A stretch of 34,031 nucleotides of DNA, taken from the IMG/VR virus record IMGVR_UViG_3300042907_001323, positions 1 through 34,031 of that record; one strand, written 5' to 3'. The notes below the pieces were generated by a model. The model was not told the origin of the DNA and made no database searches. It saw only the letters and a program-made list of their open reading frames with translations. Positions 25,631 to 32,188 of the stretch are shown here, piece after piece; the stretch's first letter is position 1, and each line of letters starts with the position of its first letter. Position numbers and translations under genes: made by a program. This DNA is from a virus.

Positions 25631-25808
25631 CCGGCCTGACCTTTCACCGTTTCACCGGATGGAGCTGCTGGCGCTCGAGGCCAAGATGTTCCCCGCTACT
25701 GCCCAGCGGAACCTTCGGCAGATTCTGACGCTCGCGCTTGGCGAGCAACGGAGGATCAGAGAGGCCCGCGGGGCGATTCAGCCACGCACCACCAGGGGGA
25801 CGCGATGA
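25623..25808 (+). CDS. Small helical protein, unknown
   Basis: A 61-residue basic helical protein (PFHRMELLALEAKMFPATAQ, RNLRQILTLALGEQRRIREA), starting at ATG 25623 inside the end of the previous gene and ending 4 bases into the exonuclease gene (ATGA). It could be an exonuclease partner; nothing specific is recognised. Confidence 0.5.
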   Translation: MDDRPDLSPFHRMELLALEAKMFPATAQRNLRQILTLALGEQRRIREARGAIQPRTTRGTR

Positions 25809-26707
25809 GCATGACGACTGACCGAGAAGCATGGTTGGAGCGGCGACGTGCGGGGATCGGCGGCAGCGACGTTGCCGGCATCCTTGGCCTTTCCCGCTGG
25901 CGCTCGCCGCTGGATGTGTACCTCGACAAGACCGGGCAGGCCGAGCCGATTCCCGACAACGAGCCGATGCTGTGGGGGAGACTCCTCGAGCCACTGGTGA
26001 TTGCCGAGTTCTCCCGCCGGCATGGAATCACGGTCGACGGGCTGACAGGGGTGCTTGAGCATCCCGAGCACCCTTTCATGCTGGCCAGCCTCGACGGTTG
26101 GGCGCCGGACCTGAAAGCCGTTGTGGAGGCGAAGACGGCCCGCACGGCGGACGGCTGGGGCGAGCCCGGGAGCGACGAAATCCCGGCCTACTACCAGACC
26201 CAGGTGGCTCACTACATGGCCGTCACCGGGGCGCAGATGGCGTTTATCCCGGTGCTGATTGGTGCCTCGGACTTCCGCACCTATCAGGTGGAGCGCGACG
26301 AGGACTTCATCACCGATCTGATTGAGGCCGAGCGGGCTTTTTGGCACGACCACGTCCTGGCCAACGTGCCTCCCGATCCGGTCAACGCTGCCGACGCGGC
26401 TCGGCTTTGGTCAAGGGACAACGGCACGACCCTTGAGGTGCCGCCAGAGATTGCCGACGACGTCGACGAGCTGCGGGCGCTGAAGGCCGACGCGAAGGAG
26501 TTGGAGGAGCGAATCGACTCCATCGAGGAGCGGCTCAAGGTGACGTTCCGCGATGCCGCGGAGATTGCGACCGGAGGCCGGACGCTGGCGACGTTCAAGG
26601 CCCAGACGCGAAAGGGGCTCGACACGAAGGGCCTGACCGCGGCCCACCCTGCGATTGCGGACGCCTTCCGCACCGAGACGACATTCCGAGTTCTACGCCT
26701 CAAGTGA
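25805..26707 (+). CDS. YqaJ-type viral exonuclease (lambda Exo-like)
   Basis: A 300-residue PD-(D/E)XK nuclease for resecting double-strand ends. The YqaJ signature is clear: an R-R-x-G-I-G-G-S-D-V-A opening (15-24), LWGRLLEPLVIAEF (57-69), D97 in ASLDGWAP, then E108-x-K110 (VVEAKTA) and Q131/Q133 in the YYQTQVAHYMAV helix. The C-terminal 100 residues are a charged coiled coil (LKADAKELEERIDSIEERLK). It starts within the small helical gene (ATGA) and is followed by the probable annealing protein, the usual exonuclease-annealase pair. Confidence 0.9.
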   Translation: MSMTTDREAWLERRRAGIGGSDVAGILGLSRWRSPLDVYLDKTGQAEPIPDNEPMLWGRLLEPLVIAEFSRRHGITVDGLTGVLEHPEHPFMLASLDGWAPDLKAVVEAKTARTADGWGEPGSDEIPAYYQTQVAHYMAVTGAQMAFIPVLIGASDFRTYQVERDEDFITDLIEAERAFWHDHVLANVPPDPVNAADAARLWSRDNGTTLEVPPEIADDVDELRALKADAKELEERIDSIEERLKVTFRDAAEIATGGRTLATFKAQTRKGLDTKGLTAAHPAIADAFRTETTFRVLRLK

Positions 26708-30204: not shown

Positions 30205-31014
30205 ATGGCCAAGAGCCCTGGATTCTGGTTTTTCACTGGCGACTGGATGAAAGACCCCGAGCTTCGGTTTTGCTCGATCTTTGCTCGCGGTTTGCTTGTC
30301 GATTTGCTTTGCATCTTGTTCGAAGCAAAAGAGCGCGGCTACGCGAGCAATCCTGATGGCACACCGAGAACCGACCAGCAGATCGTTGACGCGGTCGCTG
30401 GGAGCTCCCGGGAGGAAAAGTTGGCGGCCCTGCTGGAGTTGGAGAGGAGCGGCGTTCTTTCCCGCGATAAACGAGGGGTTTTGTTCAGCCGGCGGCTGGC
30501 GAGACTTGCCGAGGTGAGCGAAACGCGAAGCAAAAGCGGAAGCAACGGCGGAAGCAAAACTCAAGCAAAACTCAAGCAAACCGCCGAGCAAAAAGACAAG
30601 CAAAACAGGGGGGTTTCGGATTCGGTTTCTGATTCGGTTACTGATACGGGACACACTCGCTGCGCTCGTGTGTCTTCCGACGCGACAACCGCACGCGAGG
30701 GGGGCGAGGACATCCAGGGAATCTGGGAAACCTTCCGCCAAGCCTGGAACAAAACCCCGAACACGAAGCCGTGGAACGGCCTCGGTTGCCCGACCGACGC
30801 CTTCGAGATCGTCAGCGACCTGTCATTCGTCGCGGGATACCCGGCGGCCCTCGAGCGACTGCGAGCCTCGAAGTTCTTCACCGACCCGGCCGCGATGACG
30901 TGGTTTCTCCGCAACTGGCACCGAGTGCTGGCGGGGGAGTTCGACGGCCGGATTGAGCTGGCCGGCAAGCCGAAGCGGAAGATTTTCTCTCTCGACGAGG
31001 AGGTGGCGACATGA
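30205..31014 (+). CDS. Replication initiator protein (O-like)
   Basis: A 269-residue protein. The N-terminus, FWFFTGDWMKDPELRFCSIF-ARGLLVDLLCILFE, is the DUF1376-like winged-helix opening of phage replication proteins (compare F-Y-x-G-D-W-x-x-D-x-x-x-x-x-L). The middle (residues 105-150) is a Lys/Ser/Gln linker ending in three VSDS-type repeats. The C-terminal domain has IWETFRQAWNKTPNTKPWNG and a helical ending. Like lambda O, the gene encloses origin-like repeats, which the linker and part of the N-terminal domain encode. Rare Leu TTG and A-rich codons there differ from neighbouring genes. AAGGGGAG precedes the ATG. Confidence 0.75.
   Translation: MAKSPGFWFFTGDWMKDPELRFCSIFARGLLVDLLCILFEAKERGYASNPDGTPRTDQQIVDAVAGSSREEKLAALLELERSGVLSRDKRGVLFSRRLARLAEVSETRSKSGSNGGSKTQAKLKQTAEQKDKQNRGVSDSVSDSVTDTGHTRCARVSSDATTAREGGEDIQGIWETFRQAWNKTPNTKPWNGLGCPTDAFEIVSDLSFVAGYPAALERLRASKFFTDPAAMTWFLRNWHRVLAGEFDGRIELAGKPKRKIFSLDEEVAT
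30268..30309 (-). repeat. Iteron array A (inverted orientation), four copies
   Basis: TTTGCT begins at 30269, 30280, 30291 and 30303, spaced 11, 11 and 12 bases. On the minus strand the copies read CGAGCAAAAC, CGAGCAAAGA, CAAGCAAACC and AAAGCAAATC. They are built from unusual TTT/TTG/CTT codons for this GC-rich genome. A lone forward copy GAAGCAAAAG follows at 30322. Confidence 0.75.
30528..30606 (+). repeat. Iteron array B (direct orientation), seven copies
   Basis: AGCAAA (one AGCAAC) begins at 30529, 30541, 30553, 30564, 30575, 30587 and 30599, spaced 12, 12, 11, 11, 12 and 12 bases, about one helical turn. Consensus CRAGCAAAMC; CAAGCAAACC occurs in both arrays. This is typical of binding sites for an initiator stacked along one DNA face. 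Confidence 0.85.
30613..30648 (+). repeat. Three tandem 12-mers, candidate unwinding element
   Basis: GTTTCGGATTCG, GTTTCTGATTCG and GTTACTGATACG follow one another without gap, seven bases after array B. They encode VSDS-VSDS-VTDT. They are T-rich relative to the surroundings and recall the AT-rich repeated DUE next to iterons. Confidence 0.7.
30650..30674 (+). repeat. Hairpin at the end of the origin-like region
   Basis: GACACAC (30650-30656) pairs with GTGTGTC (30668-30674), with an inner GC/GC contact. It lies directly after the 12-mers. It may be a priming or assembly structure of the origin. Confidence 0.5.
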
Positions 31015-31565
31015 ACCGCGGCGAGTTTGGCGGCTGGGTGAAGCGGCATCAGGCCCTTTTCCCGAACCTGTCGTCGTGGTTCGAGCAGCAGCCCGAGCCC
31101 CGCGTGATCCTCGACGCCTGGGCGAAGGCGCTGGAACATTGCTCAGCGATCCACGCGGCCGATGCGACCGACCGGATGCTCAGGGGCGTGGCACCGGTGG
31201 TGGGGTTTCAGGACTGGGCCAGCCTGCCATCCGTGGTGCTCCAGCACTGCCGAGTGATGGGCTCGGGCAGGCCCGAGAAGACTGGCGGCCCGGGGTACGC
31301 TCCGGGGGCGATGAAGGCTCTGCAGAAGGCTTTTTGCGAGATGGCCCCGGGGACGGACGGCGAGACGTTCCGCGACTTCGAGGCGCTCATCGGCGTGATG
31401 GACCCGGTTGACTTGACCGACACGAAGCGGCGGATCCTCGACGCGATGGACGCGGGCAAGCTCGGGGCCCACTCTGCGAACCGGCTGCTGGTCAGCGCGG
31501 CGAGGCGGGCCGGGGCGAAGGGGAACGGCAACGCGGGTGACGCATGGGAAGGGGGCCAGGAATGA
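31011..31565 (+). CDS. Putative helicase loader-like protein
   Basis: A 184-residue protein whose ATG overlaps the initiator stop. The N-terminal helical region (FGGWVKRHQALFPNLSSWFE, then ILDAWAKALEHCSAIHAADA-TDRML) resembles the short helical domain of G39P/DnaT-type helicase loaders or replisome organisers. The gene follows the O-like initiator, as P follows O in lambda. No Walker motif is present, so it is not itself a helicase. The C-terminal 80 residues are helical and basic. The family assignment is an inference from layout. Confidence 0.55.
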   Translation: MNRGEFGGWVKRHQALFPNLSSWFEQQPEPRVILDAWAKALEHCSAIHAADATDRMLRGVAPVVGFQDWASLPSVVLQHCRVMGSGRPEKTGGPGYAPGAMKALQKAFCEMAPGTDGETFRDFEALIGVMDPVDLTDTKRRILDAMDAGKLGAHSANRLLVSAARRAGAKGNGNAGDAWEGGQE

Positions 31566-32188
31566 CCAGAACCAACGGACGACAGGCCGGCAACACCACC
31601 GGGAAGGGCCCTAGGATTGTTTCTCCGGGCAAACCAGTGGCCGGGGGGCTCCCGAGACGCCCGGAGGGCGAAGGGGCCGCAGAGGCGACGCTAGGGGCCG
31701 GGGCGAGCGGGCGACCATTCGCCGCATTCTCCCCCTATGCCCGGCGCGAAATCCTCGCCATCGACCCAGGCCCGACCCGGAGCGCTTTCGTTCGGTGGGA
31801 TGGGCAGCGAGTCGTTGACGCGGCGTGGTGCGACAACGAAGAGGTGCGCGACGTGATTGCGATGAACCGCAGGAAGGGGCCGATTGCGATTGAGATGATT
31901 GCGAGCTACGGGATGGCCGTTGGCGCCGACGTCTTTCAAACCTGCGTGGAGATCGGCCGTTTCGTTGAAGTTGCTGAGGGGAACGTGTCTCTGGTCTTTC
32001 GCCGCGACGTGAAGATGCACCTCTGCGGATCTGCTCGAGCGAAGGACGCGAACATCCGGCAAGCCTTGCTCGACCGCCTGGGCCCTGCTGGCACGAAGAA
32101 GGCCCCCGGCCCGCTCTACGGGGTGAAGAGCCATATCTGGGCGGCCCTGGCCGTTGCGATCACGCATGAAGCGGCGGTGAAGGCATGA
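31562..32188 (+). CDS. RuvC-like/RNase H-fold nuclease
   Basis: A 208-residue protein. After about 60 low-complexity residues the RNase H fold starts with ILAIDPGPTRSAFVRWDG (D68), followed by IAIEMIASYG (E111), RRDVKMHLCG-SARAKDANIRQALLDRLG (D162) and KSHIWAALAVAI (H191). This is the order of RuvC-type Holliday junction resolvases. The last acidic position carries His, as in some RuvC proteins. It lies in the replication operon (ATGA overlaps on both sides) and is likely to resolve branched DNA before packaging. Confidence 0.8.
   Translation: MTRTNGRQAGNTTGKGPRIVSPGKPVAGGLPRRPEGEGAAEATLGAGASGRPFAAFSPYARREILAIDPGPTRSAFVRWDGQRVVDAAWCDNEEVRDVIAMNRRKGPIAIEMIASYGMAVGADVFQTCVEIGRFVEVAEGNVSLVFRRDVKMHLCGSARAKDANIRQALLDRLGPAGTKKAPGPLYGVKSHIWAALAVAITHEAAVKA

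Follow-up and report, generated by a model that had tools for sequence, protein, structure and literature searches.

The origin of replication of phage lambda is located in gene O, where iterons between the DNA-binding and the C-terminal domains are followed by an easily opened tract (PMC7466680). In phage SPP1, the gene of the replisome organizer gp38 itself contains direct repeats and an unwinding element (oriL), and both the helicase loader and the DnaB-like helicase are encoded by the phage (PMC6316719). The rep gene of plasmid pSK41 encodes a winged-helix N-terminal domain, and its origin encodes the linker, with the Rep boxes located centrally in rep (PMC5703833). The basal unwinding system of bacterial origins consists, in this order, of DnaA boxes, a short GC-rich spacer and periodic DnaA-trios (PMC8287927), and the recognition element of DnaD was reported as 5'-TnnT-3' (PMC10201434).

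Here, these systems are compared with a locus in the virus record IMGVR_UViG_3300042907_001323, the whole 34,031-bp stretch of which was analysed and is called the window. The region is very probably a theta origin within the gene of its own winged-helix initiator and resembles lambda O in its logic. The following features were identified:

30205..31014, plus strand: predicted initiator gene (replisome-organizer-like), 269 amino acids, based on the open reading frame, PHROG matches, a structure model and viral fold matches
30269..30308, minus strand: inverted iteron array, four AGCAAA (TTTGCT on the top strand), in codons 22-35 of the DNA-binding domain
30324..30329, plus strand: lone direct AGCAAA adjoining the inverted array, shared in position by most clade A relatives
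30480..30485, minus strand: possible degenerate inverted site TTTGTT, weak; the GTT and TTG codons there are mostly conserved
30517..30604, plus strand: direct iteron array, a degenerate AGCGAA at 30517 and seven AGCAA(A/C), with conserved phase and in three frames
30607..30612, plus strand: G tract (six G) separating the direct array from the TTC tract; in relatives, this position is occupied by a run of G or C
30613..30648, plus strand: putative unwinding tract in which TTC recurs at 6-bp intervals, exactly in four units and in degenerate form thereafter
30650..30674, plus strand: hairpin with a 7-bp stem, GACACAC/GTGTGTC, local fold -13.8 kcal/mol
31011..31565, plus strand: next gene, 184 amino acids, overlapping the initiator gene by 4 bp; by its position a candidate helicase-loader gene

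An AlphaFold model based on 38 sequences divided the protein into a winged-helix domain (residues ~10-114), a linker (~115-165) and a C-terminal domain (~170-242). The winged helix was modelled confidently over residues ~21-110 and the C-terminal domain more weakly, while residues 136-163, which are encoded by the TTC tract and the sequence after it, had very low confidence. A Ser-rich disordered stretch followed the low-complexity linker. The PHROG matches of the window protein were weak (primosomal protein, E 0.0011; replisome organizer, E 0.005), whereas relatives with the same N-terminal domain and the same arrays strongly matched replication-initiation PHROGs. Among viral models, DUF1376, Lin1244 and replisome organizer proteins were found as fold matches with E values of 3e-4 to 5e-4. 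No Pfam family, DUF1376 and RepA_N included, was found for the window protein up to E 1. The fold search of the model against the PDB gave no confident match (best Foldseek E 0.14, VIA Z <7), which does not imply a new fold. Judged from sequence and model, the gene product is predicted to be a winged-helix protein of the phage replisome-organizer type, related to the DUF1376/Lin1244-type initiators.

The TTTGCT copies of the inverted array start at 30269, 30280, 30291 and 30303, with spacings of 11, 11 and 12 bp, and the array begins 65 bp after the start codon. The direct array is located ~325 bp inside the gene, in codons ~105-133 between the winged helix (to residue 114) and the C-terminal domain (from residue 170). 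Its AGCAA(A/C) copies start at 30529, 30541, 30553, 30564, 30575, 30587 and 30599 (spacings 12, 12, 11, 11, 12 and 12 bp), with AGCAAC at 30541, and the sequence between the iterons is largely unrepeated. The original prediction had placed both arrays at these coordinates with an 11-12 bp phasing, but had missed the direct copy at 30324 and the degenerate copies at 30517 and 30480. In the entire 34 kb, the only 6-mers with at least three copies at 10-13 bp were those of these two arrays. DnaA boxes were not above chance in the window, and none with at most one mismatch was present in or near the gene. A minimum of the cumulative GC skew near 30600, which had been suggested as a check, was not observed; the skew was positive almost throughout the window.

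The position of the inverted array would also be plausible for a roadblock, and winged helices of this kind are common in transcription factors too. The arrays could then be an operator only, by which the protein or a repressor controls its own operon while replication starts elsewhere. We regard this as unlikely: the direct array lies well within the gene, ahead of a conserved tract of low stability as in known origins, and no other iteron array, and hence no second origin of this kind, was found in the 34,031 bp of the window, a possibly incomplete record.

Two null models were used to assess the arrays. In the first, the protein was kept fixed and codons were sampled from ten other window genes; in the second, codons were permuted within the gene (20,000 draws each). 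Four TTTGCT in the array segment were obtained in 0/20,000 draws under both models, and six AGCAAA in 0/20,000 draws with sampled codons and 3/20,000 with permuted codons. The arrays had been thought to force rare TTG, TTT and AAA codons. TTG and AAA are indeed uncommon, as they account for 33/300 Leu and 29/149 Lys codons elsewhere in the window, but TTT (46/134 Phe) is only moderately so.

The codons of the inverted array were also strongly constrained among homologues. In 22 genes, the mean synonymous entropy of codons 22-35 was 0.27 bits, compared to 1.04 bits in the rest of the domain, and an entropy as low as that of the array codons was reached in 0/20,000 permutations. Two leucines are encoded by TTG in 22/22 genes, and at the adjoining site at 30324, the codons GAA (21/22) and GCA (20/21) are held. 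The excess over the synonymous-codon nulls and the near-frozen synonymous sites argue that the inverted array is held at the DNA level, so that the selection on DNA proposed earlier was borne out. This opposed array within the codons of a DNA-binding domain is a clean example of a sequence that carries two codes at once.

A search of viral contigs gave 19 close homologues, and an alignment-based search yielded 62 loci. These include clade A (L002-L021, L028 and L037-L039) and its sister clade B (L022-L027 and L029-L036, 8 distinct). The phase of both arrays is kept in about 25 relatives. In clade A, the inverted sites are fixed at gene positions 65, 76, 87 and 99 and read AGCAAA in 83 of 84 cases. 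The direct sites are mostly at gene positions 326/337/349/360/371/383(/395), and 135 of 138 linker sites have the form ANCAAA. Linker spacings are 11 or 12 bp in 114/115 cases and all three reading frames are used, while the linker residues and the frame differ among relatives (SKTQAKLKQTAEQK, SKTSSKRAANRVANEQQ, SKKVANEKANRIANGKQ). Autocorrelation against a synonymous null gave peaks at 11, 34 and 23 bp. Thus, as the original prediction had expected of homologues, in clade A the repeats and their phase are conserved while linker codons, frame and residues vary.

In clade B, the linker sites are 32 AACAAA, 13 AGCAAA and 3 ATCAAA, and silent changes (TGC to TGT and CTT to TTA) have turned 2/4 sites of the inverted array into AACAAA. 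The co-shift of the two arrays is one evolutionary event, yet it is what would be expected of a single protein reading both. The more distant relatives L041-L063 keep the domain with 21-34% identity over the alignment. Many of them have other short linker repeats, e.g. CAACCAAA, CAAAGG, GTAACGC or TGTCACG, with a top autocorrelation lag of 11 bp (z 6.2). No inverted array was recognised in L041-L063; it is therefore specific to clades A and B plus L040. In L041 (4001-4896), the start of the linker with the array recurs near the contig end in the same frame, perhaps as an assembly or terminal-repeat effect.

A scan of a genome collection with the close alignment gave no loci, and with the broad alignment 21 loci. 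Bacteroides phage Versailles (L186), a remote homologue called replisome organizer, has no array. The expectation was then fixed beforehand for 20 unseen homologues, which came from the genomes of Acidobacteria, Planctomycetes, Acetobacter and other bacteria. In this set, the top lag was again 11 bp (z 3.1) and runs of at least three TTC were present in 10/20, which is a partial and weaker confirmation of the layout. Some unseen homologues lacking TTC have another 6-bp repeat at the same place: CTACAC in L311, GAAGCA in L312 from Acetobacter cerevisiae LMG 1625 and GAGACA in L314 and L317, which encode TPTPTP, AEAEAE and ETETET, respectively. A 6-bp periodicity may therefore be more general than TTC.

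The linker is of low complexity and is followed by the Ser-rich disordered stretch, as would fit repeats that do no more than specify a conserved helix and a flexible, basic linker rich in Q/K/S, together with codon bias. However, the 11-bp period is not a multiple of three, sites occur in all three frames with differing linker residues, and codon nulls with the protein kept fixed fail to reproduce the arrays. Moreover, Asp, Val and Thr in the tract are almost only GAT, GTT and ACT, as described below. Such a protein-level origin of the repeats is very unlikely.

In the window, TTC starts at 30615, 30621, 30627 and 30633. The segment 30612-30648 belongs to the lowest 0.4% of the window in stability, and no other 36-mer region of the gene is as unstable. 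In 58/64 sequences, many of which are closely related, the array is directly followed by three or more TTC spaced exactly 6 bp apart. The tract is read in the frame Ser(TCN)-x(NNT). For the codon test, runs were chosen by protein only (S-x-S-x-S-x), which resulted in 47 distinct runs. Compared to the rest of the same genes, Asp is GAT in 62/62 cases (317/722 elsewhere), Val is GTT in 53/54 (170/568) and Thr is ACT in 11/11 (92/582), while Ser is never AGC (0/248, compared to 222/858). Since residue x changes (D, V, S, T, A, L or I) and its third base stays T, the tract is kept as DNA.

The units of the window tract are mixed (TTCGGT, TTCTGA, TTCTGT and TTCGGA) and TTC alone is constant, which argues against plain slippage. 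The three exact 12-mer tandem repeats that had been described at 30613-30648 are not exact, as the further units match the first at 11/12 and 9/12 positions. Similar tandem hexamers are frequent in viral contigs outside initiator genes, and the arrays and the tract could in principle be functionless products of repeat expansion. In addition to the mixed units, the largely non-repeated sequence between the iterons, the persistence of the phase over strongly diverged proteins and the location of the inverted array in a conserved, indel-free domain oppose this, and we consider it extremely unlikely.

TTC-type hexamers were also considered as a stand-alone origin marker and rejected: a scan with the degenerate clade A form gave mostly plain tandem repeats outside initiators, so that the tract alone is no marker. 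A scan with exact (TTCATC)4 recovered further initiators, some of them DUF1376-like by sequence appearance. In L257, a gene resembling another phage replisome-organizer type (FINTKFWSDNYIVNL...) ends in (TTCTGA)n, encoding SDSDSD, which is possibly a convergent use of the tract.

The predicted hairpin at 30650-30674 was found with a perfect stem, but it is lineage-specific. In L002, the stem is kept by a two-sided change (GACACGC/GCGTGTC), and in L003-L020 the hairpin is absent and a CA repeat is present instead. It was therefore rejected as a general part of the origin. Many others among L021-L058 have a run C5-C5-G5 at this place that is able to form a hairpin.

Compared to the described systems, the locus has DNA-level repeated sites in an initiator gene, between the domains, with an adjoining element of low stability, as in-gene iteron origins do. 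This order is shared with lambda, which also has a helicase-loader gene downstream. In lambda, four iterons of 18 bp start at intervals of 20-24 bp and the tract is simply AT-rich, whereas the window has a 6-bp core at 11-12 bp, and iterons of ~18 bp at a spacing of 20-24 bp are not present in it. The TTC-phased tract and the second, opposed array are likewise unlike lambda. The window protein did not match the O-like family; L037, with the same arrays, matches phrog_678 at 1.1e-14. SPP1, compared by description, has a second origin ~13 kb away, whereas the window has no second array outside the initiator gene. The RepA_N structures 4pql, 5kbj, 4pt7 and 4pta were among the best structural matches, with Z 5.8-6.5, tied with unrelated winged helices, and the window protein has no RepA_N Pfam domain. 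The DUF1376/Lin1244 organizers have a similar overall model, with PHROG 13246/9327 matches that are weak for the window protein and strong for its relatives. Among open-licence papers, none was found that describes arrays like these for this family.

The order of boxes, short GC-rich spacer and periodic tract of short units in the window is the same as in the basal unwinding system. The (TTCATC)n tracts of relatives fit the (.A.)n trio pattern on the matching strand and also the DnaD element 5'-TnnT-3'. The window tract (TTCGGW/TTCTGW) fits neither pattern throughout: stretches of three or more NAN trinucleotides in a row are absent from the proper strand, as A is found in every other triplet only. 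The likeness is therefore a lead and does not indicate membership. The window is also unlike the DnaA system in that it has no DnaA box, and the initiator is not AAA+ by any match found.

None of the window genes could be identified as a helicase gene, and the next gene (31011..31565) had no family match in Pfam or PHROG. In relatives, the gene after the initiator encodes DnaB in three cases and a DnaC-like (IstB-type) ATPase in two, and in cyanophage Pam1 a DnaB-type helicase gene directly precedes the initiator homologue; relatives with a helicase or loader neighbour are thus L023, L033, L043, L040, L045 and Pam1. In L043 (5056-7644), the DnaB gene after the initiator homologue has an intein with a LAGLIDADG domain, and the initiator homologue itself has an inserted stretch in the linker. 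In the same region of the window, an exonuclease similar to YqaJ/RecE and a protein resembling Holliday-junction resolvases are encoded at 25805-26707 and 31544-32188.

The analysis shows two arrays and a tract that are conserved and under selection as DNA, and the arrays co-vary. Since relatives keep this DNA label also at places where the encoded residues differ, the stretch is most likely gene and origin at once. The predicted reading of an in-gene origin with the logic of lambda O is thus supported by the homologues, the initiator-type families and the helicase or loader neighbours in relatives. Plasmid iteron arrays act in copy control too. That the arrays are a partition or incompatibility site for segregation or copy control of an extrachromosomal prophage, for which two opposed arrays could pair, is nevertheless next to negligible, as their place between initiator domains and the adjoining unwinding-type tract point to initiation.

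For the preferred in-gene origin, binding, opening and helicase loading are inferred by analogy to lambda, SPP1 and pSK41 (PMC7466680; PMC6316719; PMC5703833). The winged-helix N-terminal domain would bind the AGCAAA iterons within its own gene. With neighbouring copies separated by about one helical turn, the protomers would stack on the same face of the DNA, about one per turn. Assembly on the direct array and across the G tract would open the adjoining TTC tract, after which the C-terminal domain and the loader would recruit the DnaB helicase. The opposed array may be a second binding site for the same protein, which either joins the complex by looping of the ~220 bp in between or limits or autoregulates initiation; looping and a separate regulatory role seem about equally likely. 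No mirror-image unwinding tract was seen by eye beside the inverted array.

In-gene origins as a kind are known. In the open-licence literature, no paper was found that describes a TTC-phased tract or in-gene iterons of phages at 11-12 bp, which is weak evidence of novelty; the second opposed array was not found described there either. The locus is a well-supported candidate for an in-gene origin. More tentatively, a large and diverse group of phage initiators might share a grammar of in-gene origins. Short, helically phased iterons of changeable sequence would be combined with a G/C spacer and a TTC tract with a 6-bp phase, which the initiator or its helicase loader would read in single-stranded form, as a phage counterpart of the DnaA-trios. 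In one clade, silent codon choice would then have placed a second, opposed array within the coding sequence of the very DNA-binding domain that reads it.

Only a few model phages and plasmids are known to have in-gene origins, and the repeats differ from one to the next. Among the relatives studied here, a common layout with changing iterons was found both in viral contigs and in bacterial genomes, including those of Acidobacteria and Planctomycetes. Since the layout recurs across these relatives, origins could be read off the genomes of uncultured phages, and the TTC tract offers a concrete and cheap test of a sequence code for strand opening by phage initiators.
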